This document shows positions 6,004 through 41,408 of a DNA stretch of 57,189 nucleotides, in pieces. The stretch is taken from positions 1 to 57,189 of the forward strand of contig JAJDNB010000027.1 in the NCBI GenBank assembly GCA_022340905.1, read 5' to 3'. A program made the translations under genes and the position numbers. The notes beneath the pieces were generated by a model. It was given only the letters and a program-made list of their open reading frames with translations, was not told the DNA's origin and did not search any database. The first letter of the stretch is position 1, and every line of letters starts with the position of its first letter. Source of the DNA: Deltaproteobacteria bacterium (GTDB lineage: Bacteria; Desulfobacterota; Syntrophobacteria; BM002).

Positions 6004-6019
6004 TGGCACATTGCTTGCT
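6004..6019 (+). promoter_or_regulatory. Sigma-54 (-24/-12) promoter, perfect consensus
   Basis: TGGCACATTGCTTGCT matches the RpoN consensus TGGCAC-R-N4-TTGC-W at every defined position, with GG and GC exactly ten bases apart (GG 6005-6006, GC 6017-6018). Transcription would start near 6030, just ahead of the LtaS-like gene at 6042. The regulator and its enhancer site are not identified. Confidence 0.78.
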
Positions 6020-6041: not shown

Positions 6042-7976
6042 ATGATGGCAGGGTTTTTTACTTTTGCAGCTGTCACTGCGTTGGGACTCAAAAGTGGTAT
6101 TCCGGATAGTAATTCTATGAATTCTATCAGAATAATATTTGCGCGAGTATCAACATTCTTGCAGCATATGGAAAGAAGACAATGGTACAAAGTATCCTCT
6201 TTCGTGAGTCTTGTTTTGTTGCTCACTTTGATTATCGACATTCAAACATTCGGATACTCTCCCAAGATAATTGCATATACGTGGCTTATTTCTAGTTATA
6301 CGTTTTATCCACTTATGTTGCTTTCCTTGCTGATGCTATTTAGAAATAAAATCTCACCTGTGATAGAGCCTCTCGTCGTCATTGTTCTCTGGATATTTTC
6401 TCTCTGGTTTATAGCTTCTTCATACTTCTATATTGACCAGGGCCGCACCTTGCTATGGTATGAAATCAAGTTTTATTATTTTGAATCCGGCTATAGAGAC
6501 TACATGTTAGAGTTGCTGTTCTCCCGAAGGTTACTGATTTTTACTCTTTTGTTTGTTGGGGTATATTGGGGATTGCGTTTCTTGTATAGAAACTACGTCA
6601 AGGCAAAGGTCCTATTTTTTTGTACCATTCAAGTGATGGCAGCCGTCATGATATTGGGGGTAACTGAATCACAATCTACTATTCTCGGTCATGGCATACT
6701 CAGTTATTACTATGAACCGGCTAGTTCACCCTGGTCCATAGCACATAGGCCATACGCAGATGATGAGATTAGAGCATTTGATTTCAAAGTGGCTAGGAAG
6801 ATCAGGGAGACAGAGGGGAGTCCCTTCTGGGCAGATGGAGCCGATGAAAGGTTGGCTCCCCTCGCCGGCCGTTATCATGGGCGGTCTGTTATTGTGGTGC
6901 TGCTGGAATCTCACAGGGCTAGTGATGTTTCCGGCCTCGGAGAAGGAGCATTTCATCACCAGAATCTCTCTCCCACCATAACGAGATATATGAATGAAGG
7001 AATAACTTTTACCAATCATATAGCAGCAGGTAAAGGTACCTGGGCCGCCAGATGGAGTCTAATCACGGGGTTGAGCAATCCTCCGGGTGATACGCCACCT
7101 ATTCTCTTAAAGCCTGATGCAGGCAAGGTTGGGCGCATGCCGCAAATAAGGGAAAGTGGCTACGACTGTGTGCTGTTGTCGGCTGCCAACCCCCAATGGG
7201 ATAACTGGGGTCAAATCATAGCAGAGGCAGGATGCGAGTGGGGGCTCAATAGAAAACTTATGACTGGGGACGATGGCGTTTACAAAAGACACTTTGACTT
7301 TCGTGATGACCTGTTGTTTTCCACGGCTCTGAAAAAATACAAAGAGAGTGTTGATAATAATCGAGCTTCTTTCTTTATTATCCAAGCCTTAAGCAATCAT
7401 GAACCGTACACTTTTCCTTCCGAAATAGATGGAAAGAAAATACCTCATAATCATCAAGGAGGGATGCTATTTGTCGATTATGCTCTGGGTATTTTGCTGG
7501 ACGGCTTGAAAAAGTTACCCCAAGAAAAACAACCTGTTATCTTCATAACCTCTGATACTGCCAATGAAGAAGGGTTGGTGGCAGCAAAGGCACTCGGAGG
7601 AGGTGTATTGGAGGGGTTGCGTATACCGGGACTTCTTCTACTGCCTGATCGACAAATGGCTGGGGAAATATATGACGGCCTATTTTGCCATGAGGATATA
7701 CTCGATCTTATGTATCTCTTGACCTCTGCTGAATCTAAACCTCACATGAGGAAATTCTTGAAACGCCATAGGATTATAGCGCCTACTTGGAGAATGACCA
7801 TCCTTCTGACTCAATCAACTTGTTTTTCTGTAAAGACAGAAGATATATCTTATATAAAAGACACCTGGAAGCTGGAAGACACAGAAAACCCGCAGGAATT
7901 GAAATTACTTCTCGAGGCCAGGGACAGAATGTTCGATCAAGATAAGAAACTTTGGAATTCTCAAGATAACTCGTAG
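6042..7976 (+). CDS. LTA-synthase/sulfatase-family membrane phosphoglycerol transferase-like protein
   Basis: A 644-residue protein with about five hydrophobic helices up to roughly residue 220, then an extracytoplasmic alkaline-phosphatase-fold domain. The metal-binding start is 'VIVVLLESHRASDVSG', and the likely nucleophile is T333 in 'GKGTWAARWSLITGL', placed like the catalytic Thr of LtaS. A later 'FITSDTAN' replaces the usual DH-type metal motif and should be checked. Relatives move phosphoglycerol or phosphoethanolamine groups onto envelope polymers. The start is uncertain: ATG 6042 has GGGGA close upstream and fits the sigma-54 start site, but ATGs at 6117 and 6168 are alternatives. 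It is transcribed towards the minus-strand polysaccharide cluster. Confidence 0.8.
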   Translation: MMAGFFTFAAVTALGLKSGIPDSNSMNSIRIIFARVSTFLQHMERRQWYKVSSFVSLVLLLTLIIDIQTFGYSPKIIAYTWLISSYTFYPLMLLSLLMLFRNKISPVIEPLVVIVLWIFSLWFIASSYFYIDQGRTLLWYEIKFYYFESGYRDYMLELLFSRRLLIFTLLFVGVYWGLRFLYRNYVKAKVLFFCTIQVMAAVMILGVTESQSTILGHGILSYYYEPASSPWSIAHRPYADDEIRAFDFKVARKIRETEGSPFWADGADERLAPLAGRYHGRSVIVVLLESHRASDVSGLGEGAFHHQNLSPTITRYMNEGITFTNHIAAGKGTWAARWSLITGLSNPPGDTPPILLKPDAGKVGRMPQIRESGYDCVLLSAANPQWDNWGQIIAEAGCEWGLNRKLMTGDDGVYKRHFDFRDDLLFSTALKKYKESVDNNRASFFIIQALSNHEPYTFPSEIDGKKIPHNHQGGMLFVDYALGILLDGLKKLPQEKQPVIFITSDTANEEGLVAAKALGGGVLEGLRIPGLLLLPDRQMAGEIYDGLFCHEDILDLMYLLTSAESKPHMRKFLKRHRIIAPTWRMTILLTQSTCFSVKTEDISYIKDTWKLEDTENPQELKLLLEARDRMFDQDKKLWNSQDNS

Positions 7977-30508: not shown

Positions 30509-31186
30509 TCACTTATACTTATAGAGCACATCACGTTCAGATAAAGTGGCAATTGGTCTGTATAATTGCCGCAGAAAGCGATCAATTTCGTCTCTAAAAG
30601 ATGAATCTAATGCTTCAATTAACATAAGATTTGGATGATACTTTCCAAAATCTATACCCTTCAACACATTAATTTCGTATCCCTCTACATCCAACGACAA
30701 GAAATCTATAGTTGTGACCCCGTATTCATCAAGTATTGAAGTTAAGGTTCTAGCAGGGACCCGCAAATCGTAACTCGAAACACCCTGCATCTGGCAGCCT
30801 CTTCTTATGTGGTCCTCTTCTACCTCAGGTGTTGTCAGAGCACCTTTCACGATGGACATGAGCCTGCAATAACGCATTTCTACGAAAATCTCAGGGTAGT
30901 CGAAAGAAACTAGGGCACAATTCTCTACAGTACAATTAGGTCTATTTTCTTTGCACTGAATAGCCAGTTCCGGGACCGCTTCGATGAGAATTCCTCTCCA
31001 GTTCTTGTATCTTTCAAAATATAATGTGTTGCTTTGGGATATACCGTCACTCGCCCCCGCCTCGATGAAAAAACCATTCCGATAGCTAAGGTAAGGTTCG
31101 AGTTTTAGATCCAGTTGGTTAAGCCCAAAAGATTGCTTCTTTCCCCCAGTAACAAATCTCTTTACTACTCTGGAGATAATATTCAT
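30509..31186 (-). CDS. FkbM-family methyltransferase
   Basis: A 225-residue FkbM-type SAM-dependent methyltransferase: 'FFIEAGASDGISQSNTLYFE' (SAM loop), 'GILIEAVPEL' (acidic ribose contact) and 'TIDFLSLDVEGYEINVLKGI' (family signature). Members O-methylate sugars in glycans and antibiotics. Its ATG overlaps the stop of the Wzt-like gene (ATGA). Since Wzt C-terminal domains recognise terminal modifications in the E. coli O9a-type system, this enzyme may set the methyl cap that Wzt reads. Confidence 0.87.
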   Translation of the reverse strand: MNIISRVVKRFVTGGKKQSFGLNQLDLKLEPYLSYRNGFFIEAGASDGISQSNTLYFERYKNWRGILIEAVPELAIQCKENRPNCTVENCALVSFDYPEIFVEMRYCRLMSIVKGALTTPEVEEDHIRRGCQMQGVSSYDLRVPARTLTSILDEYGVTTIDFLSLDVEGYEINVLKGIDFGKYHPNLMLIEALDSSFRDEIDRFLRQLYRPIATLSERDVLYKYK

Positions 31187-32499
31187 GACTCATCTTCTAT
31201 GAAGGGTGCACTGTCGTCTGTTAGTGTCCATTGACCGCTGACCATAAATGGGGCACTCCTGGCAAAACCTTTGTTTCCTGTGCCATAGAAGTCTCCTTCA
31301 GCGACTTCCAAATAGCCAACACCACCTCGAGGCCAGTCTGCTTCTTCTTGGCCGATTGTTACGCGAGCACCAACTCTGTAGCGACCCGAATGTAGAGGTA
31401 AGTTTGGTATGTGGCAACGAAAGATTCCTACAGTCGGTAATTTATCGAACACTTGCCCCATGTATGAGCTATATAGTACGAAAAGGGTCTGATCTCGCTC
31501 TGAGTGAATTGAAAATCCTATATCGACATTGCGGGGAATTTCTCCCTCCTGACAATGGAATCCGAAGGCAAAGACAACATCCATGCCACTGCGAGCAACC
31601 GAGACTTTATTACCCTTTATGTCTTCGAGATGAAAACTAATTAATCTAATTCTTCCATCACCTGATCGATCCTTACTATCAACAAGAGAGATAGTGTTCT
31701 TAACTGCTGAATTTACCCCTTGGAGATACCGGTTCACAACGGTGTAAGCATCACCACTCATCGCTACTCTACCTTCTTCGATTAACAAAACTCTTTTGCA
31801 TAAGTTTTCGACAGCAGCTAGATTATGGCTTACAAACAAGACAGTCCGTCCAGTTGTTGCCACTTCATCCATTTTGCTTAAACATTTTCTCTGGAAGTGC
31901 GCATCTCCTACAGCCAATACCTCATCTACAAGCAATATCTCCGGCTCAAGATGGGCAGCCACGGCAAAAGCTAAGCGAACATACATGCCACTGGAGTAAT
32001 ACTTTACCGGCGTATCAATGAATTTCTCAATCATCGCAAAATCTATAATTTCTTCAAACTTGTGAACAATCTCCGCCTTTTTCATTCCCAAAATAGCACC
32101 GTTAAGGTAAACATTCTCCCGCCCGGTTAGCTCCGGATGAAAGCCGGCGCCCACTTCTAAAAGGGAGCCAACCCGGCCGTGAATCTCTGCTTGTCCTTCT
32201 GTTGGTTCGGTAATGCGAGAGAGAATCTTGAGAAGGGTGGTCTTACCCGCCCCATTCTCCCCTATCACTCCCACCACCTCACCCCGCTTGATCTGAAAGG
32301 AGACGTCTTTGAGTGCCCATATTTTTTCCTTCATATCTGCAGCACCATATGGTTCCCCACGGAACAGGCTTTTCACTCGACGAAAAGGCGCCGCCAAGGC
32401 ATCGGTCAGCGTATCGCGAAGAGTCCTGTATTCGTTATGCCTGATGCCGATGTGGTACTGTTTGCTCAGACAATCTGTTCGTATGGCGATGTCACTCAT
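31183..32499 (-). CDS. wzt: Polysaccharide ABC exporter ATPase with C-terminal carbohydrate-recognition domain
   Basis: A 438-residue protein. The ATPase domain has Walker A GENGAGKTT (80-88), signature YSSGM (168-172) and Walker B LLVDE (189-193). From about residue 260 it carries a Wzt-type beta-sandwich domain, present in exporters that select modified glycan ends. It pairs with the permease 3 bp upstream and exports undecaprenyl-linked glycan through the inner membrane. The extra domain points to an O-antigen-like export mode with chain-end recognition, not a plain teichoic-acid-type exporter. Confidence 0.93.
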   Translation of the reverse strand: MSDIAIRTDCLSKQYHIGIRHNEYRTLRDTLTDALAAPFRRVKSLFRGEPYGAADMKEKIWALKDVSFQIKRGEVVGVIGENGAGKTTLLKILSRITEPTEGQAEIHGRVGSLLEVGAGFHPELTGRENVYLNGAILGMKKAEIVHKFEEIIDFAMIEKFIDTPVKYYSSGMYVRLAFAVAAHLEPEILLVDEVLAVGDAHFQRKCLSKMDEVATTGRTVLFVSHNLAAVENLCKRVLLIEEGRVAMSGDAYTVVNRYLQGVNSAVKNTISLVDSKDRSGDGRIRLISFHLEDIKGNKVSVARSGMDVVFAFGFHCQEGEIPRNVDIGFSIHSERDQTLFVLYSSYMGQVFDKLPTVGIFRCHIPNLPLHSGRYRVGARVTIGQEEADWPRGGVGYLEVAEGDFYGTGNKGFARSAPFMVSGQWTLTDDSAPFIEDES

Positions 32500-32502
32500 A
32501 TG

Positions 32503-33333
32503 CTAAACAACGTCGGCAAAAGTTTTTTCCATTCGTCTGAAGTAGAAAGCGCCGCCAACCAGGATCGCCAAAGCTACTAGGGCAGAGACTGCAATAATCG
32601 GCCCGGGAGCGGTGTCCGCACCCAGCAGTGCCCAGCGGAAACCCTCAACCACGCCGACCATGGGGTTGATCCCGTAAAGCGTGCGCCAGGGTTCGGACAG
32701 CAAGCTGCTGGGATAGGCGATGGGCGTGGCGAACAGCCAGAATTGCGTTAGGAACGGCACCGTGTAGCGCACATCCCGAAACTGGACATTCAATGCTGAA
32801 AGCCAGAATCCCACCCCCAAGGCAGTGATAAAGATCAACAATACAAAGAGCGGCAGCCACATGATGTTCACAGTGGGCAGAATTCCGTAGAACAGCATCA
32901 TGCCCAACAAAACTGCAAAAGCTAGCACAAAATCCACCACACCCGAAATAACACCGGATATGGGCACCACCAAACGTGGAAAGTACACTTTCTTTATCAG
33001 GTTGGCACTGCCCACCAGGCTGTTGGAAGCCATATTCAACCCATTGGCGAAGAAAGTCCAAGGGACAAGAGCGGCGTAGGCAAAGATGGGATATGGCAGG
33101 CCATCCGACGGCACTCCAGCCAGTTTTCCAAAAAAAATGCTGAAAACCACCATGGTGAAGAAAGGCTGGATAATGGCCCATGCAGCACCAAGCACAGTCT
33201 GCTTGTAGCGGACCTTGATATCTCGCCAGGCCATGAAGTAAAGAAGCTCACGGTACTCCCACAACTCTTCGAGTTTGAGTGAGATCCACCCCTTTGAGGG
33301 CTTGACGATAATTACATCGGAATCAGAAGGCAT
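32503..33333 (-). CDS. wzm: Polysaccharide ABC exporter permease
   Basis: A 276-residue ABC-2 permease of the Wzm/TagG family: amphipathic N-terminus 'LKLEELWEYRELLYFMAWRD', 'IKVRYKQTVLGAAWAIIQPF', six hydrophobic helices and 'YGINPMVGVVEGFRWALLG' near the end. It forms the transmembrane channel with Wzt. It is the first gene of the long minus-strand run and has a leader with a hairpin and a sigma-54-like site. Confidence 0.94.
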   Translation of the reverse strand: MPSDSDVIIVKPSKGWISLKLEELWEYRELLYFMAWRDIKVRYKQTVLGAAWAIIQPFFTMVVFSIFFGKLAGVPSDGLPYPIFAYAALVPWTFFANGLNMASNSLVGSANLIKKVYFPRLVVPISGVISGVVDFVLAFAVLLGMMLFYGILPTVNIMWLPLFVLLIFITALGVGFWLSALNVQFRDVRYTVPFLTQFWLFATPIAYPSSLLSEPWRTLYGINPMVGVVEGFRWALLGADTAPGPIIAVSALVALAILVGGAFYFRRMEKTFADVV

Positions 33334-33738: not shown

Positions 33739-35208
33739 TTAACATCTCACGCTGGGTCTAACCAGACTACCATCAAGGAACGTTCTCAAACCATAAAGCT
33801 TCCTCCGTAGGTCGTCCACCGTCCGAATTGCCCTGGCCATTTGTAGAATCTGCTGCGGCCTTAGATAGAATTCTTTGAGTCCCTGGTCGATGAGTCCATC
33901 TATCTCCTCCTTACTGAGTTCCGGCAAGCTTAGCACCGTAGCTTGCTCCCAGTTCTCATCCACCCATCCTCTCCATTTCTCTGGAACGAGAAAACCTTTT
34001 GTTGCTGCCTCTTGGTAAATCTCTGAACCTGGATAGGCGCAAATACCGGAAAACTGAACAGTATCCATGGGAAGTGATTTGGCGAATTCGATGGTCTCTA
34101 GGGCCGACTCCCTTGTTTCTCCTGGAGCGCCGAACATAAAACAACCGTGGACGGTGAATCCCAACCTTCTCGCCTCGCTTGCCAGCCGTACGGAATGCTC
34201 TAAAGTCGTTCCCTTTTTTACCGCATCCAATGCCTCCTGAGTGCCAAACTCAAATCCAACCATAAGCATACGACAGCCTGCGCGTCTCATAAGAGGCAAG
34301 AGTGATAGATCCACGTCGGTTCGACAGTTGCATGACCAAGTTATGCTGAGTTTTCTCCTGAGCACCTCTTCACAGATACCGCTGACATGCTTGGGGGATG
34401 CAGTGAAGGTGTCGGTCTCGAACATGACCTCCCTCAGGTAAGGGAAGAGGGATAGATCGTATTCGATCTCATCCACCACCAACTCCGGATCCCTCATCCT
34501 CAGCTTTCTCCCTTCCATCAGGGACACGTCTCTACAAAACGTGCAGCGGCCGAAGCATCCCCTGCCGGAGATGAGGGTAATGAAGGGAAAACGTTTTCCA
34601 GCGTCCCGGTACCATCTCGGGTCTATGTGGGGCCAGGCTGGGAATGGGAGCTCGTTTGCGTCCAGATAAGGTCTGACTGGAGTATGGACCGCATGGCCCT
34701 CACTGTCCAAATAAGAAATTCCCAGAATTCCAGCGAGCTTTGACGTACTCCAACCTGAACCGGCAAGCTCCGCAAGCTCCCTCAGGGTGTAGTCGTACTC
34801 TCCCCGCACCACCGCATCCAGGGATCCTTTGGCTCTGTGGAGGGTGTCCTCCGGTTCCGCAGTCACGTGAGGTCCCACAGCCACGGTTTTACAGTCAGAT
34901 ACAAGTTTCTTGGCTAGGGAGGCGTAGTTCAGATCAGAGTCTATGGAAGGGGTGGTGGTGTGGAGAATTAACAATCCGGGTCTTTTCTTCTGCAAGGCAG
35001 AGGCCACCTCCTGCCGCCCCAAATTCATGGCCGCTCCGTCCAAAAATCCCACTTCAAGCCCCGCCTGCTCTAAGACTGCCACAGCAGTTAGCAGCCAGTC
35101 CGGGTGGCGCTGCACCCGTCCCCTTGATCTGGCGGCCCAGCGGGCTGAGCGGCAGAAATCTTGTACCACCGGCGGGTTGAGTACGAAAACATCAGCCATG
35201 TTATTCAT
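33739..35208 (-). CDS. B12-binding-domain radical SAM protein
   Basis: A 489-residue protein. Residues ~35-150 form a cobalamin-binding-like domain ('LLTAVAVLEQAGLEVGFLDG', 'GLLILHTTTPSIDSDLNY', 'TVAVGPHVTAEPE') without a clear DxHxxG motif. The radical SAM core has the CxxxCxxC cluster site C218, C222 and C225 in 'ISGRGCFGRCTFC'. Such enzymes do methylations or rearrangements on lipids, cofactors or natural products; the substrate here is unknown. The start may be the ATG at 35199. It follows the pilin-linked TMTC gene by 102 bp. A three-mismatch sigma-54-like site (35262-35277 minus) is too weak to call. Confidence 0.82.
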   Translation of the reverse strand: MNNMADVFVLNPPVVQDFCRSARWAARSRGRVQRHPDWLLTAVAVLEQAGLEVGFLDGAAMNLGRQEVASALQKKRPGLLILHTTTPSIDSDLNYASLAKKLVSDCKTVAVGPHVTAEPEDTLHRAKGSLDAVVRGEYDYTLRELAELAGSGWSTSKLAGILGISYLDSEGHAVHTPVRPYLDANELPFPAWPHIDPRWYRDAGKRFPFITLISGRGCFGRCTFCRDVSLMEGRKLRMRDPELVVDEIEYDLSLFPYLREVMFETDTFTASPKHVSGICEEVLRRKLSITWSCNCRTDVDLSLLPLMRRAGCRMLMVGFEFGTQEALDAVKKGTTLEHSVRLASEARRLGFTVHGCFMFGAPGETRESALETIEFAKSLPMDTVQFSGICAYPGSEIYQEAATKGFLVPEKWRGWVDENWEQATVLSLPELSKEEIDGLIDQGLKEFYLRPQQILQMARAIRTVDDLRRKLYGLRTFLDGSLVRPSVRC

Positions 35209-35310: not shown

Positions 35311-37707
35311 CTATGCCGGTGTTCTCAGAGGTCCCTTGTCTTGGAGTATGGACCTGAGACGCAAAACCTCCTTGGTTATTCTCTGTTTTTCTTTGAGATC
35401 CTCGAGGTTCTTTGCGTAGCGTTCATACCATTCGAGCGCCTCACCGTATTCTTCTTGCAGGGTTGCAATTAAGGCCATAACCCTTTCCGCTCCGGGTGAA
35501 AGAGTTCCCCCGAGGAATTTATCAGCATAACCCTGCAAAATTCTATCGAGATTATGCTCCCTGTTGGCCTGCAAAAATGAGGACTCTTCTGAACCTGCCT
35601 TTACACCAAACAGTTTTCCCACAAGGTTAATCCTCTCCGTTGAATAGCCGAGATATCCGTAACATCTAATCGTTTGGAGAGGTATATCCAGCGAGAAAGG
35701 ATCCACTTCCTTGGCATGCTCTAAATGCTGAAGAGCTTCCTGCCACCGTTCTTCCTTCATAAGAATTACGGCCATATCGTAATGCGCCTCTGGGGATGAG
35801 GGGATTTCCTCAAGGACCTTGCGAAACATCGCCGCAGCATGTTCATAGTCTTCCTCTAAGTAATTGATCTGTCCAAGCATAAGCAGGGAAGGAGTTCGCC
35901 CCGATTTTTCCTCCGTTTCCGCAGAAAAATAGGCTTTCGCCCTGTTAAAATCATCCAATCTGTAAAAAGTCATGCCTCGATAAAAATTCACCAGCGGCAG
36001 TCCCTCCGGCAACTTGGTCACTACACCGGCAAGGGTCGTTGCCTTGTCGTTTAAACCCAACTCTTGATAGACCTGAAGAAGATCAACATAAGCGGCAAGA
36101 TATCTGTAACCAGGTTTCAGCTTGACAAGCCGCTCCAAATAGATGCGAGCTTCTTCCCACTGCTCCAACTCCTTATAGCTGCATCCGAGTTTGTAGAGGG
36201 AGGGTTTATAATTTGGCTTTCTCTTGATCGCTTCCAGTTCTGAGGCGATGGTCCTCTGGTAATCTCCTTCCTCAAAATAAGCTAGGGCCAGGTTGTGCCA
36301 AGGGACTTCCCACTGCGGCATTAGTTGATTGGCAATTTCGAACTCCCTCCTCGCAGCTTCAGTCATGTTCATACCCAACATATAGAGCTCCCTGCCATAG
36401 TTGTTGTGGGGTCTTGCCTTGTTGGGAGACTTTTGCACCGTGTCTTTCCACAGTGACAAGCCACTAGCCCAGACTTCATTGCGCTCATGGGTAGTACTGG
36501 TTAGGCCCACCATGACTGCAGCGATCACTGCAGTAGACGCTATGGCCTGGACTGCTCGAGAGGTCTCCCCAACTCTTGCCAGGCTCCAGAGAATAATCTG
36601 CACACATCCCATGGCAAGAAAAGCCACAGCAAGATACATCCGGTGTTCGAATATTACGTCGTGGAGTGGAATTACACTCGAAGTGGGAGCCAAGGTTATG
36701 AAAAAGCCTACGATGCCGAGGGAAACCAGACGAAATCTTCTATATGCGAGCACGGCAAGCAAAATGAGCACAAGGAGTAAAAGGAATGATGCCGTGGTCT
36801 CAAGGGTAAAAAAGTGGCTCGTCAGAGGGTAATCCCAATCTATATTCTGGTTGGCGGGCCAGAAATAGAGTCGGAGATAGGTGAGCAATACACTGAATTG
36901 TGTCAGAATGTATTGCTTTCTGGTGAAAGCGATTCCTGGATCGTAAAAGAAACCTCTCGCCAGCAAAGGTCTAACCACGTGTGACACCACTACGCCAGCC
37001 GGGATGAAGAGGATGAGAACCTTTTTTTTTCGGAGGAGATCTCTGAATGATGTCTTGAAAAAAAACAGTTCATAGGTCACGATCATGACTGGGAGGGTCA
37101 CTGCAGTTGCCTTGGAGAAGGCAGAGCACAAAGCGGCAACCCCGGTGAGCAGGAAATATCCAAGTGCGATATTACCCTTCCCCTCCATCCGCCCTTTCAC
37201 ATAAAAAAAGAGGGCGGCCAGATAAAACATCCCGGCCATACTTTCTGACCGCTGGATCACGTACGTGACGGATTCAGTCTGCAGAGGATGAAGCAGGAAG
37301 ATTCCAGCTGTTAGGAAGGCTGCCAACTGCTTGGAAGATTCGGGGGAGGTATCCTGCATAGCAGGAGTGTTCCAGGTTTCCAGGCAAAGGAGGTAAAGAA
37401 AAATGGCTGCACCGTAATGAATGAAGAAATTAAGAATATGATAGGTTAAAGGATTTAACCCACCGATCTCATAATTGATTGCCAAGGTGAGATAGGGCAA
37501 GAATTGCTGCCTGGAGTAAGAAAAAATCGCCTCAATATTAGACAGATCAACGATGGCATCGTTTTGTAAGATGTGGCGAACATCATCGAGATAGAAGGAA
37601 GCGAAGAAACTTTGTTCATAGGCAACGAGACCGAAAAACAAAAGAATCAAGACATAGCTCAGATCAGAAGCCAGGTATTGAGATAATCTGTGTTGATGCC
37701 CTTCCAT
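35311..37707 (-). CDS. TMTC-like membrane glycosyltransferase with TPR tail
   Basis: A 798-residue protein with an early acidic loop after the first helix ('SFYLDDVRHILQNDAIVDLS'), about ten membrane helices to residue ~420 and 'VTYVIQRSESMAGMFYLAALF'. These are typical of the TMTC/DUF1736-like GT-C family that uses polyprenyl-linked sugars outside the cytoplasm. From residue ~440 there are about nine TPR units. It is the fourth gene after the pilin terminator, in one direction with the ABC genes, so pilin or secreted-protein glycosylation is a reasonable guess. It is related to the partial gene at the window start. Confidence 0.82.
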   Translation of the reverse strand: MEGHQHRLSQYLASDLSYVLILLFFGLVAYEQSFFASFYLDDVRHILQNDAIVDLSNIEAIFSYSRQQFLPYLTLAINYEIGGLNPLTYHILNFFIHYGAAIFLYLLCLETWNTPAMQDTSPESSKQLAAFLTAGIFLLHPLQTESVTYVIQRSESMAGMFYLAALFFYVKGRMEGKGNIALGYFLLTGVAALCSAFSKATAVTLPVMIVTYELFFFKTSFRDLLRKKKVLILFIPAGVVVSHVVRPLLARGFFYDPGIAFTRKQYILTQFSVLLTYLRLYFWPANQNIDWDYPLTSHFFTLETTASFLLLLVLILLAVLAYRRFRLVSLGIVGFFITLAPTSSVIPLHDVIFEHRMYLAVAFLAMGCVQIILWSLARVGETSRAVQAIASTAVIAAVMVGLTSTTHERNEVWASGLSLWKDTVQKSPNKARPHNNYGRELYMLGMNMTEAARREFEIANQLMPQWEVPWHNLALAYFEEGDYQRTIASELEAIKRKPNYKPSLYKLGCSYKELEQWEEARIYLERLVKLKPGYRYLAAYVDLLQVYQELGLNDKATTLAGVVTKLPEGLPLVNFYRGMTFYRLDDFNRAKAYFSAETEEKSGRTPSLLMLGQINYLEEDYEHAAAMFRKVLEEIPSSPEAHYDMAVILMKEERWQEALQHLEHAKEVDPFSLDIPLQTIRCYGYLGYSTERINLVGKLFGVKAGSEESSFLQANREHNLDRILQGYADKFLGGTLSPGAERVMALIATLQEEYGEALEWYERYAKNLEDLKEKQRITKEVLRLRSILQDKGPLRTPA

Positions 37708-37733: not shown

Positions 37734-38651
37734 TTATTCGGAAATGAAACCCATAAAAAAATCTTCCAATTCAAACCGTTTGGGATCAATGGTGTAGGGT
37801 TCCAAACCTATTTTTACACACGTTTCCAGAAATTCGCTAAGTTTCTCCTTGTCAACCTCCAATTCCACCCTATCTTCGTATGTCCTCAGGGAGAATTTTT
37901 CCTGCTGCAAGGATTGGACCTGGTGCGGCTCAGGATTTCTAAAAACAACCTCGTAAGAGGAAAAACTGTCGGAAATCACATCTGTGAGGTCTCCGGAGAA
38001 TTTCAGTTCCCCTCTGGTGATTATGCCTATTCGATCACAAATTATCTCCACATCGTGCAGAATGTGCGTGCTGAAAAAGATGGTCTTTCCCTGGGCGCGA
38101 AGATGAAGCATGAGATCCTTGACCAGCTTCCGGCCCACAGGATCCAGTCCGGACATGGGCTCGTCGAAGATGATCACCAATGGGTCGTGTATGAGAGAAG
38201 TGGCAATCCCCAGCCGCTGGATCATTCCTTTGGAATAGGTGCGCAGCGGTCTATGGGCGGCTTCGGTCATATCCAACATTTCCAATAGGGCCATACCCCG
38301 TTCACGAATCTGGCTCTTGCTCACTCCGTGGATGGTACCGTGAAACTCCAGAAGTTCCCATCCGCTGAGAAAAGCGTAGTAACTCGGATTCTCTGGGAGA
38401 TACCCCATCGGACGCCGTGCTTCCGGCTGCCTTACATCTCTCCCCTTTATGGTTGCCTTGCCACCGGTTGGACGGATAAGATCACAGAGAATCTTGATAG
38501 TGGTGCTCTTGCCGGCGCCATTCGGCCCCAGAAAACCGAAGATTTCTCCTTCCGACACAGTCAAGTTCAAATCATTGACCGCCAGGACCTTTTGCTGTCG
38601 CAAGCCTTGGCGATAGATTTTACTGAGATTCTCAGTTCTTATGGCCTCCAC
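37734..38651 (-). CDS. ABC transporter ATP-binding protein (ABC-2 type)
   Basis: A 305-residue ATPase with Walker A 'GPNGAGKSTTIK', signature 'YSKGMIQRLG' and Walker B 'LVIIFDEPMSGLDP'. A C-terminal ~80-residue extension is seen in the CcmA/NatA-like group. It pairs with the permease at 39542-40369. The GTG start at 38651 lies inside the TPR gene's end (20-bp overlap), showing tight coupling. The cargo is unknown; the position behind the pilin genes suggests a pilus-related role. Confidence 0.92.
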   Translation of the reverse strand: MEAIRTENLSKIYRQGLRQQKVLAVNDLNLTVSEGEIFGFLGPNGAGKSTTIKILCDLIRPTGGKATIKGRDVRQPEARRPMGYLPENPSYYAFLSGWELLEFHGTIHGVSKSQIRERGMALLEMLDMTEAAHRPLRTYSKGMIQRLGIATSLIHDPLVIIFDEPMSGLDPVGRKLVKDLMLHLRAQGKTIFFSTHILHDVEIICDRIGIITRGELKFSGDLTDVISDSFSSYEVVFRNPEPHQVQSLQQEKFSLRTYEDRVELEVDKEKLSEFLETCVKIGLEPYTIDPKRFELEDFFMGFISE

Positions 38652-39486
38652 GAGACCCCTTTCCGAAGGCTAGTTTGCTGGTCGTTCGCACTTTGCCTTG
38701 TTTGTCCAGGTAAAAAGTTCCTCCGTATGGATCTTCAGGCAGATGGTCGAGTATGCCCACATCGACCAGCTCCTGCAGGTCTTTCGGAGCCCTGTGAAAA
38801 CGTTTGCTAAAATCAGCTATTGCTTCTTCCAGTTGAAAGATTCTCTCGAGCGCTTCAGCACGAATTAGCAACTGCTTTTTTATTGCCTCGCTGCGGGTGG
38901 TGGGAATTAGCTCCCTGAGATAGGCGAGGGCAAGGGCTGTTTTCCCCCCCTCGTAATAATAGCGTGCAGCCAGAGTGGCAAACCAGGCAGCCCGTGGATT
39001 GAGTTCTGCCGCTTTTGTCAGGAATTCTCCAGCCTTATTATAGTCTTTCATAAAGAAGGCATAGTCGAAAGACAAGAAAAAGGGTAAGTACCAATCCCAG
39101 GTACGGTGGGCGAAACCATATTCCAAGAGGTCGATGGCCTCCTGCGGCTTACCGGCGTCCCAGGGCAGAATTGCCTGAGCAAAATAGTAGGCATCCATGT
39201 TGTAGGGATCCAGCCGGCTGGCGGTATACAGTGCCCTTTGCAGCCTGAGCCAGTCCGGCATCTGCTTCCTCACGTCCACCAGGGTACCGAAATAAAAAAG
39301 GCACTTGAGGGTGATGAGCTGGGATATGAACTGATATTGGTCAGCACTCAAAGCCTTGACCACTGGTGCCGGCGGGAAAAATCCCAATCTGACCTCAGGA
39401 GGACGAGAATCTCTCAGAGAGGTTAGAGCTGCATGAGTGCCAAAAAACAAAAGCAAAAATGGTAGTAGTAAAACAATTCTTTTCAA
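38632..39486 (-). CDS. TPR-like protein with pseudopilin-like C-terminus
   Basis: A 284-residue protein with an N-terminal hydrophobic signal or anchor, then helical TPR-like repeats at about 90-220 ('AWFATLAARYYYEGGKTALA'). The end 'GILDHLPEDPYGGTFYLD' resembles the C-terminal DPYG/Y motif of GspG-type pseudopilins. It starts at TTG 39486, supported by AGGGGA five bases upstream. Sandwiched between permease and ATPase genes, it probably works with that transporter in the periplasm. The exact function is unknown. Confidence 0.72.
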   Translation of the reverse strand: MKRIVLLLPFLLLFFGTHAALTSLRDSRPPEVRLGFFPPAPVVKALSADQYQFISQLITLKCLFYFGTLVDVRKQMPDWLRLQRALYTASRLDPYNMDAYYFAQAILPWDAGKPQEAIDLLEYGFAHRTWDWYLPFFLSFDYAFFMKDYNKAGEFLTKAAELNPRAAWFATLAARYYYEGGKTALALAYLRELIPTTRSEAIKKQLLIRAEALERIFQLEEAIADFSKRFHRAPKDLQELVDVGILDHLPEDPYGGTFYLDKQGKVRTTSKLAFGKGSRGGHKN

Positions 39487-39541: not shown

Positions 39542-40369
39542 TCAGAGAAATTCCCGGCGGGAGAAAGCAATCATCGCCAGTACTAGCACTATCCCCAGAT
39601 AGGCGAAGCCGTAGAGTTGCGTGAGCAGGACTGTCTTTCCGCTCAAAGCCAAACCGTAAACTATCTCGGTCTTTAGATCAAAGGCGGAAAAGTTAGGGAG
39701 AATCCAGTATACGAGTTTCCCGAAAATTTTGACTGCCGGGCTCAGCTTATCTTCTCCTCCTCCGCTCTGCAGATAATAGCGTACCGCTTCCGTACTGTAG
39801 CTGCCGAAGTAGATGCCAACACTGAGTGCCAGGGGCAAAAAATTGGAGGTGGCCACTGTAGAGAAGAGCACGGTAATTGCCCCCACAATGAGAAAAATCC
39901 AGTACTGAAACCAGAGTCCTAGGAAAAAACCACCCCAGGCAAAAGGTCTCTCAGGAGGGTATATGCGCTCGAGCACAGCGAGGGCCCCTGCGGAAAAACA
40001 CCCCAGTATGGCAACGGCGAGCAAAATGAGAATTGCAAACCCCAGGAACTTGCCAAGCAGATAGGACGAGCGGGAGATTGGCAAAGAACAAACTGTGTAT
40101 ATGCTGCGCTGCTCGAGATCTCGCGCCACAAGAGATATTGCCATAGAAAGGGTGAGTAAGAGACCCACCAGGCTGATGATCGACAGAGAGTAACTGCTGG
40201 CCAGGGCCAGCACCTGGCGCATGGAAAAGACCGCCACCACCGGAGTGGTCAACAAAAGCAGCAACCCTACCACAAGGATGGCTGAGATCACCCGATCCCG
40301 AATACCTCCTTTGATGGCAACGGTGATGAAAGCGCTTAATGTTCTTGGGACCGCAGCACCGTCTTTCAT
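39542..40369 (-). CDS. ABC-2 type transporter permease
   Basis: A 275-residue membrane protein with six hydrophobic helices (first at ~25-45, last at ~245-268) and a cytoplasmic loop 'LVARDLEQRSIYTVCSLPIS' typical of NosY/YhaP-like ABC-2 permeases. It opens the run permease-TPR-ATPase-TMTC. The 276 bp before it contain the pilin terminator and probably this operon's own promoter, which I could not define. Confidence 0.88.
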   Translation of the reverse strand: MKDGAAVPRTLSAFITVAIKGGIRDRVISAILVVGLLLLLTTPVVAVFSMRQVLALASSYSLSIISLVGLLLTLSMAISLVARDLEQRSIYTVCSLPISRSSYLLGKFLGFAILILLAVAILGCFSAGALAVLERIYPPERPFAWGGFFLGLWFQYWIFLIVGAITVLFSTVATSNFLPLALSVGIYFGSYSTEAVRYYLQSGGGEDKLSPAVKIFGKLVYWILPNFSAFDLKTEIVYGLALSGKTVLLTQLYGFAYLGIVLVLAMIAFSRREFL

Positions 40370-40586: not shown

Positions 40587-40613
40587 AAAAAGGGGGTCAG
40601 TTACCCGACCCCC
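40587..40613 (-). terminator. Rho-independent terminator after the pilin genes
   Basis: On the minus strand a 7-bp stem (GGGGGTC / GACCCCC) with an 8-base loop is followed by five U residues. It lies about 33 bases after the pilA-C stop codon and separates the pilins from the ABC genes, which would favour high pilin expression. Confidence 0.88.
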
Positions 40614-40645
40614 TGGGCTTCAAATATTCTGCTGAAATTTCATAA

Positions 40646-40993
40646 TTACAGTGCGGTCCAACCACTGATATTGGTGGCCCCAGCGCCAGGGATACCGGTA
40701 ACAGATGTGTCACCGGTGCTCTTGGTGACCCAGTAAATGAGAGTCGTGTTATTGGTGGTACTAAACCCCCGGTTACCGGCTTGATGAACTGTGGCGATTG
40801 AATAGTCCTGATAATCGGTTTCAACGTCGTAATTCATGTACACATTGCTGGAAAGTCCATAGGTAAGGCTACCTTCAGTGGCTTGAAAGTTAAAGACACC
40901 GTCAGTCCACGTTTGGTCATCAGCGAAGGCAGCAGGTGCGGCCAATGCCAGCACCATAAGTATGGAAAAAACGATGAGCATTATTTTCTTCAT
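40646..40993 (-). CDS. PilA-C-like pilin partner protein
   Basis: A 115-residue secreted protein. A Sec signal peptide ends at 'APAAFA', then comes a ~91-residue mature domain rich in Thr, Gly, Asn and Tyr ('SNVYMNYDVETDYQDYSIAT'). It follows the short pilin directly, as in Geobacter sulfurreducens where PilA-C pairs with PilA-N and supplies the globular head missing from the short pilin. AGGAGG stands eight bases before the ATG. It carries no prepilin motif. The role is assigned by position and overall form. Confidence 0.82.
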   Translation of the reverse strand: MKKIMLIVFSILMVLALAAPAAFADDQTWTDGVFNFQATEGSLTYGLSSNVYMNYDVETDYQDYSIATVHQAGNRGFSTTNNTTLIYWVTKSTGDTSVTGIPGAGATNISGWTAL

Positions 40994-41025
40994 GAGAATT
41001 TCCTCCTGTAAACGACTACATAATC

Positions 41026-41046
41026 ATGAGATTGTTGTAATCTCAT
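41026..41046 (-). promoter_or_regulatory. Intercistronic hairpin between pilA-N and pilA-C
   Basis: ATGAGATT (41026-41033) and AATCTCAT (41039-41046) form a perfect 8-bp stem with a 5-base loop, starting four bases after the pilA-N stop codon. It has no U-run. It probably stabilises the upstream pilA-N message or tunes the ratio of the two proteins. Confidence 0.65.
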
Positions 41047-41050
41047 TTGA

Positions 41051-41266
41051 TTATGGATAGTGCTGATAGTCGGCATAGTAAGCTTCGAGATTCGTCTTTA
41101 CGTTACGCAGATCGCTCTGGGCTGCTGAGTTGTAACTCTTCTGACGATAAGCGGCGAACTGCGGGATCGCAATGGCGGCCAAAATGCCGATAATTGCGAT
41201 AACGATCATCAGCTCAATCAGGGTAAAACCCTTCTTGTTGAGCGTTTGTCTGATTTTTGTAAGCAT
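41051..41266 (-). CDS. pilA: Short type IV pilin, PilA-N (Geobacter type)
   Basis: A 71-residue prepilin: 13-residue leader [13 protein letters not shown], cleavage before F1, Glu5 and a hydrophobic alpha-1 helix, giving a mature pilin of only 58 residues. Aromatics lie at mature positions 1, 24, 27, 32, 50, 51, 54 and 57, covering the positions 1, 24, 27, 32, 51 and 57 noted in Geobacter PilA. It has no globular head, which the next gene likely provides. GGAGAAGG stands before the ATG. It is exported and assembled by a type IV pilus machine encoded elsewhere. Confidence 0.93.
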
Positions 41267-41392
41267 TAGCCTTCTCCTTTCTTTTCCAATTTATTATTTT
41301 GTCAAATATTTACTTCCTTGATGCTACCCTTCGCTTTTTTTCACCCCCTCCCATGGATTCTTGGAGTCTCTTTCTTGTTTGCCCGGATACAA

Positions 41393-41408
41393 TGCAATTT
41401 ACTTGCCA
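41393..41408 (-). promoter_or_regulatory. Sigma-54 promoter of pilA
   Basis: On the minus strand TGGCAAGTAAATTGCA fits the consensus with one mismatch (A for C at position 6) and exact GG-N10-GC spacing. The start would be near 41382. Geobacter pilA is also RpoN-dependent with a long leader, so both sequence and biology agree. Confidence 0.85.

Follow-up and report, generated by a model that had tools for sequence, protein, structure and literature searches.

In the window, by which we mean the whole 57,189-nt stretch of DNA that was analysed, a gene for a short type IVa major pilin, pilA-N (41266-41051, minus strand), is followed by pilA-C (40993-40646, minus strand), which encodes a Sec-exported globular partner. 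PilA-N is a 71-aa protein with a type IV prepilin site that leaves a mature chain of 58 residues, and PilA-C is a 115-aa protein with a Sec-type signal recognised by direct reading. The PilA-N prepilin is short, ends just past its helix and is homologous to geopilin domain 1. It gave the best match to the N-methyl motif in its own genome, and its best PDB matches were 9egp_A (1.1e-30) and 7tgg_A (1.4e-26), the N-chains of the solved pili of Geobacter metallireducens (9egp) and G. sulfurreducens (7tgg). Alignment to 2m7g and 6vk9 placed aromatic residues at F1, F24, Y27, Y32, Y51 and Y57, position 51 being Tyr in the window and Phe in 2m7g and 6vk9, with additional Tyr at Y50 and Y54. A single-sequence PDB search with PilA-C gave matches that are weak alone (9egp_B, 3.8e-5; 7tgg_a, 5.2e-5), and a profile of 58 PilA-C sequences reached the same C-chains at 1.2e-20 and 2.5e-16, respectively. 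When the predicted PilA-C model (pLDDT 81) was submitted to Foldseek, the three Geobacter PilA-C structures occupied ranks 1 to 3 (7tgg_a, 9egp_B and 6vk9), and rank 4 had an E-value of 1.1. Identity between PilA-C and its relatives is low (15-49%); the sequence, profile and model matches indicate that this adjacent Sec-exported protein shares the fold of geopilin domain 2. PilA-N and PilA-C are homologues of the two chains of the solved Geobacter pili, and the window pilin itself is a further member of this already known two-chain kind. The initial annotation had proposed a split pilin of 58 mature residues, the aromatic positions of Geobacter PilA with extra Tyr at 50 and 54, and a Sec-exported partner encoded by the next gene. 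All three proposals held: the first on the prepilin site and the PDB homology of both chains, the second on the alignment to 2m7g and 6vk9, and the third on the signal as read directly and the PDB and Foldseek matches of PilA-C.

A motif scan detected a sigma-54 (RpoN) -24/-12 promoter with one mismatch, TGGCAAGTAAATTGCA, at 41408-41393 (minus strand), 126 nt upstream of the pilA-N start codon. RpoN is encoded in the genome (473 bits). The site is identical in L045, L046 and L047 and differs by one base in L044. One other site with one mismatch exists in the 57 kb, at 6004-6019 (plus strand), and lies 22 nt ahead of a 644-aa ORF (6042-7976). For comparison, up to 350 nt upstream of pilA-N were scanned along with 752 control regions, a GG/GC core being required. 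Sites with at most one mismatch were found in 23 of 68 pilA-N upstream regions and in 0 of 752 controls, and sites with at most two mismatches in 40/68 and 10/752, respectively, the 68 regions including at least six contigs counted twice as well as second pilin copies; a hand count without the six duplicate contigs gave 18/62 and 34/62. No site with the GG/GC core was present in 7 of the 68 regions. The one-mismatch RpoN promoter named in the initial annotation was thus corroborated, both at its position and by an occurrence upstream of pilA-N far above that in controls. At its other end the pair is closed by an intrinsic terminator (40591..40614, minus strand) with a 10-bp stem and a T run, and the stretch behind pilA-C has a folding energy of -22.9 kcal/mol (z -3.15). 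A hairpin with a T run within 150 nt past the pilA-C stop codon was observed at 48 of 58 homologous loci, compared with 54 of 487 control genes. Since the terminator is conserved behind pilA-C, pilA-N and pilA-C probably form a transcription unit of their own.

Downstream on the minus strand lies a set of genes that we call the ABC-TPR module: I, an ABC-2 type permease (39542..40369; Pfam PF12679, 39.8 bits) that is found beside T in related loci; T, a membrane-anchored TPR protein with a candidate GspG-like C-terminal tail (38632..39486), assigned from family, model and profile matches; and H, an ABC ATPase (37734..38651; PF00005, 96.3 bits) whose first 20 nt are shared with the end of T. Often beside the module, and present here at 35311..37707 (minus strand), is M, a TPR protein with multiple membrane spans recognised from its TPR matches, which may be a glycosyltransferase of the TMTC/GT-C sort. 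Judged from ORF starts only, a long block of glycosyltransferase-like and sulfotransferase-like ORFs occupies 8014-35208; within it are an ABC pair of the O-antigen type (31183-33333) and an ORF that may encode a radical-SAM protein (33739-35208).

The model of T (pLDDT 91) begins with a helix that looks like a membrane anchor, continues with a TPR body and closes with a tail (38668..38892, minus strand) in which a long helix and a short one precede a beta-hairpin. Structure searches with the whole model found the TPR body and did not see the tail, a result that excludes nothing. In the PDB, a profile of 65 T tails matched at E <=1 the GspG entry 29jd (2e-4, as the sum of two stretches of which neither is significant alone), 3g20 (1.6e-3), 3gn9, 3fu1, 4lw9, 1t92, 5wda and 2kep, together with the ComGC structure 6txt; helical repeat proteins were interspersed, a designed one at rank 2. 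Pfam T2SSG was matched at E <=1 by 36 of the 65 tails (best 9.4e-4) and the next family by 4 of 65, and hhalign related the T tail to the GspG of its own genome at 92%. The window's own T tail had no Pfam match, T2SSG was absent from the Pfam matches of whole T (the window's T and the families listed for members), and hhalign found no match between the T tail and PilA-N (0.2%). No prepilin N_methyl motif was matched in the window's T or among the families listed for eight members. These weak but consistent sequence matches suggest that T ends in a GspG-like pilin domain. Literature searches, whose coverage left out most subscription journals, returned no paper naming a TPR protein with a pilin-like tail. 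In G067, G104, G092, G127 and others, the frames are 221-238 aa long and the T match ends close to profile position 218, so that these proteins seem to have no tail.

Pilus assembly genes, on whose presence elsewhere in the genome the initial annotation had made its reading depend, were found. PilB (808 bits), PilM (296 bits) and two PilT proteins (365 and 384 bits) all exceeded their family cut-offs, while a PilC-like protein scored 609 bits, below the 700 of its best model, and PilQ, cut by a contig end, scored 282.7 bits against a cut-off of 284.35. PilB, the PilC-like protein and a sensor kinase are encoded in a row on contig L052; PilM, two proteins in the PilN and PilO positions and PilQ form a row on L062, which ends inside PilQ; and the PilT proteins are on L058 and L059. 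PilN had one weak family match and PilO none, and the family search of the contigs did not identify PilP or PilD; PilR is likewise absent from the proteins identified. Both PilB/C and PilM-Q are on contigs other than that of pilA-N and pilA-C, and their machinery would be the one that uses the window pilin. The genome contains 23 N-methyl matches in all, and those examined besides PilA-N are longer proteins that read directly as minor-pilin, MSHA-like or pseudopilin kinds. A GspG-like gene is present separately on another contig, and there are three secretin matches besides PilQ.

The initial annotation had called the pilin Geobacter-like, an assignment that was right as to family and too narrow as to range, the pair being found also in other Desulfobacterota and in Nitrospirota MAGs. 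Among 59 genomes near the window, PilA-C was detected in nine, including the window's own, and in four of the eight other members of the genus; two of the four congeners with no PilA-C match are single-contig assemblies that are 87-88% complete. The eight relatives with PilA-C have the same neighbours as the window as far as their contigs reach. A scan of named genomes with T gave 114 relatives, of which 80 loci were fetched; by their deposited titles, these belong to Geobacteraceae, Desulfuromonadales, Syntrophobacterales, Desulfobacterales, Nitrospirota, Deferribacteraceae, Nitrospinota, Desulfurellales and a few others. The N-C pair stands ahead of the ABC-TPR genes in the window's lineage, in Desulfuromonadales, in other Desulfobacterota MAGs and in two Nitrospirota MAGs (L072 and L087). 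The commonest gene orders were N-C-I-T-H-M (23/80) and N-C-M-I-T-H (13/80). In 65 of the 80 loci, 3.6 kb or more lies upstream of T; a PilA-C match occurs in 54 of these 65 and an N-profile match of less than 200 aa in 53, and ten have neither. The N match of L096 is a longer pilin behind T, and in L077, a Deferribacteraceae MAG, N and C are on the opposite strand about 6 kb from the module, both sets lying within 7 kb. Three Nitrospinota loci end before the expected place of N-C. When the PilA-C profile was run on the genomes of the 13 loci with no N-C beside the module (the ten lacking both, L096, L093 and L131), nine matched, seven of them in a separate frame of 110-130 aa; of the other two matches, one was confined to the signal peptide and the other lay in a frame of 199 aa, possibly a full-length pilin. 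The profile found no match in the remaining 4 of 13. Among the seven is L067, an additional, partial T-H-M copy with no adjacent pilin, located elsewhere in the chromosome of L065, where N-C adjoins the first copy of the module. At L087:7755, an additional short pilin gene separates the permease gene from that of T. In Shu et al. 2016 (PMC5174107), truncated pilins are already described for Deferribacter, Flexistipes, Desulfobacterales and further groups outside Geobacter, and eight Geobacter genomes are given as having the C-partner. The two-chain pilin is not Geobacter-specific.

A draw of 395 genomes of the phylum was also searched with the T and PilA-C profiles, which matched in 99 and 53 genomes, respectively, the weak rows being partial or signal-peptide matches. 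Of 40 further stretches, 20 have the module next to a full-length pilin with a mature length of 177-234 aa, so the candidate view that T-H-I is confined to split pilins was rejected. The PilA-C profile matched 12 of these 20 full-length pilins at E <=1e-3, and in two of them hhalign placed the PilA-C match in the C-half (93.5% and 95.1%), compared with 1.1% and no match for an unrelated pilin, that of L008 itself. The pilins of L162, L171 and L185 are split and nevertheless stand in the order pilin-H-I-T, as in most full-length loci; L167 is also split. L182 and L183 (G130 and G059) show an intermediate split: the two N-chains have a mature length of 97-100 aa, and the C ORF is about 90 aa long; both loci are weak split calls, as the C match covers little beyond the signal peptide. 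A T tree of 85 rows (37 split, 20 full and 28 unlabelled), built by a quick method from a thinned set of the fetched loci, contained one starred clade of 49 rows; 31 of these carry a label, which is split in every case. The tree requires three changes between split and full labels, of which the starred branches force only one. Several origins of the split were considered; a single origin was not rejected: with the split rows held together, p-AU was 0.531 and the likelihood was 1.07 higher. Because the same module adjoins full-length pilins whose C-half often matches PilA-C, the data point to splitting of the pilin gene in place, ahead of the module. The idea of fission is already in Shu et al. 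2016 (PMC5174107), and the T neighbourhood results agree with what is presented there; beyond that paper, the neighbourhood adds direct evidence for fission and a wider spread of the pair.

As a whole, these observations make it very probable that pilA-N and pilA-C each encode one chain of a single type IVa major pilin, driven by RpoN and with the ABC-TPR module as an old partner. PilA-N would supply the membrane-spanning helix of the filament core, and PilA-C, exported by Sec, the outer beta-domain. PilA-C would meet PilA-N in the periplasm and dock before or during assembly, and the PilB/PilC/PilM-Q machine would assemble the two 1:1 as one subunit. RpoN would drive the pair and the terminator would cap it. 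The permease, the TPR protein and the ATPase, retained with one-chain as well as two-chain pilins, would serve the pilin. The occurrence of a two-chain pilin outside Geobacter, ahead of a module that elsewhere stands beside full-length pilins, suggests an old split that is not tied to electron transfer.

The most interesting part of the locus lies outside the pilin coordinates: the ABC-TPR module, with its conservation and with the pilin-like tail of T, suggests that a pilin-handling machine may have been overlooked. We propose, tentatively and as one possibility, that the permease-TPR-ATPase set is a machine dedicated to pilin handling, that the pilin gene was split in place before it, perhaps once, and that xapD (GSU1501) of G. 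sulfurreducens is a pilus gene and not a sugar exporter. T, anchored in the inner membrane, might with its tail mimic the outer half of a pilin or stand in for it, and might in this way keep hold of PilA-N, or of a full-length pilin, up to the docking of PilA-C or the start of assembly; H and I might spend ATP to load or release the pilin. GSU1501 would correspond to H by the order N-C-M-I-T-H of relatives, the loci compared being those of genomes other than G. sulfurreducens itself. On this proposal xapD would have to be reclassified, and the split form would now be found in more than one phylum.

That the module is a polysaccharide exporter, located downstream of the pilin by chance, as the name xap (GSU1498-1508 of G. 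sulfurreducens) implies, is likewise conceivable, although we are inclined to doubt it. GSU1498-1508 has been termed an anchoring polysaccharide cluster (PMC3495685), xapD is described as the ATPase of an EPS exporter (PMC4974642), and more EPS is said to result when xapD is overexpressed (PMC11934962), which speaks for export; in the window, an O-antigen-type ABC pair and glycosyltransferase-like ORFs follow the module. A chance position is harder to reconcile with the module adjoining a pilin in many families, whether split or full-length and in two gene orders, and a sugar exporter with the apparent pilin-like tail of T. Further against this reading, insertions in xapD (-2.0) impaired growth on electrodes in a Tn-seq study nearly as strongly as those in pilC and pilS (-2.2), although sugar genes scored as well (PMC5585712), and the pilA operon of Myxococcus xanthus also holds an ABC exporter, PilGHI (PMC3546991). 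A testable pilin-linked ABC-TPR machine is indicated, and xapD may need to be read anew.

Geobacter pili have been argued over as wires or as secretion devices. The window's own genome, as the check for multihaem cytochromes suggested in the initial annotation confirmed, is rich in CXXCH-coding DNA sites (565 compared with 165 in a reversed control). Two large cytochromes of this genome were seen: one of 755 aa with 18 CXXCH motifs (L146:3591-5855), which has no PDB relative at 0.001, and one of 730 aa (L145:4347-6536), which combines a c3/c7-like haem part with an octahaem tetrathionate-reductase-like part and adjoins HmcB-like and HmcC-like genes. Neither matched OmcS, OmcE or OmcZ in the PDB, which is a very partial test. 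Haem-motif density was compared in 39 of the 395 genomes, the other 356 being left out, and did not differ between 19 genomes with split and 20 with full-length pilins (Mann-Whitney p = 0.99; median excess of CXXCH-coding sites per Mb, 110 and 79, respectively), eight of the 19 split genomes (G175, G203, G272, G312, G331, G350, G384 and G402) having been called from frame length and E-value alone. Splitting as a marker of cytochrome-rich genomes was therefore rejected, and in this sample the split is no marker of electron transfer. The specific tie to conductive pili or cytochrome filaments drawn in the initial annotation found no support in this comparison or in the two cytochromes. It is unlikely that the pair is a secretion pseudopilus dedicated to the export of multihaem cytochrome filaments, as proposed for Geobacter (PMC10597711): the richness in CXXCH-coding sites would suit such a device, but equal density in split and full-length genomes would not, the genome carries, apart from the pair, a GspG-like gene and, besides PilQ, three secretin matches, its PilT retraction ATPases fit a dynamic pilus, and OmcZ was still secreted by a G. 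sulfurreducens pilB mutant, as described in PMC4974642. Polymerisation of PilA-N alone into thin conductive e-pili, with PilA-C as an accessory, is highly improbable despite the retained aromatic positions and two extra Tyr, given that PilA-C occurs at 54 of 65 eligible loci, that full-length homologues carry the C-half covalently, and that, by a cryo-EM account of G. sulfurreducens (PMC12954529) disputed by other authors (PMC9207759, PMC11021709), the 7-8 nm pili consist of PilA-N and PilA-C and are poorly conductive and the 3 nm filament is B-DNA.

A two-chain type IVa pilin with an associated ABC-TPR module, the reading we favour, resembles several known systems. With the Geobacter PilA-N/PilA-C pilus (GSU1496/GSU1497; PDB 6VK9, 7TGG and 9EGP), the window has in common both chains, their order and sizes, the PilA-C fold match and the sigma-54 site, and sampled Geobacteraceae have the same module downstream of N-C. 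In contrast to the Geobacter system, the window belongs to an uncultured, non-Geobacter lineage, the pilBC genes and sensor kinase of its genome are on another contig than pilA-N/pilA-C, and its PilA-N has the extra Tyr50 and Tyr54, for a total of eight aromatics in 58 residues. The full-length pilins beside H-I-T (L155, L161, L163 and others) have the same ABC-TPR neighbours and differ in being one polypeptide instead of two. In GspG, the major pseudopilin of the type II secretion system, the part made up of helix, loop and beta-hairpin is the one that the tail of T matches; unlike GspG, T has no prepilin site, and its tail, placed at the C-terminus of a TPR protein, is unable to polymerise through the customary N-terminal helix. 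In the pilA-pilG-pilH-pilI operon of M. xanthus, a pilin gene is followed by an ABC ATPase, a permease and an accessory protein, as in the window, a likeness of gene kinds alone; the accessory protein of the window is the TPR protein T, and Myxococcus PilA, unlike the window pilin, is one chain. The pilGHI genes, which share the operon of pilA, are said to be essential for pilin translocation or needed for pili (PMC3724824, PMC3546991), a role of the kind that the module might have in the window.
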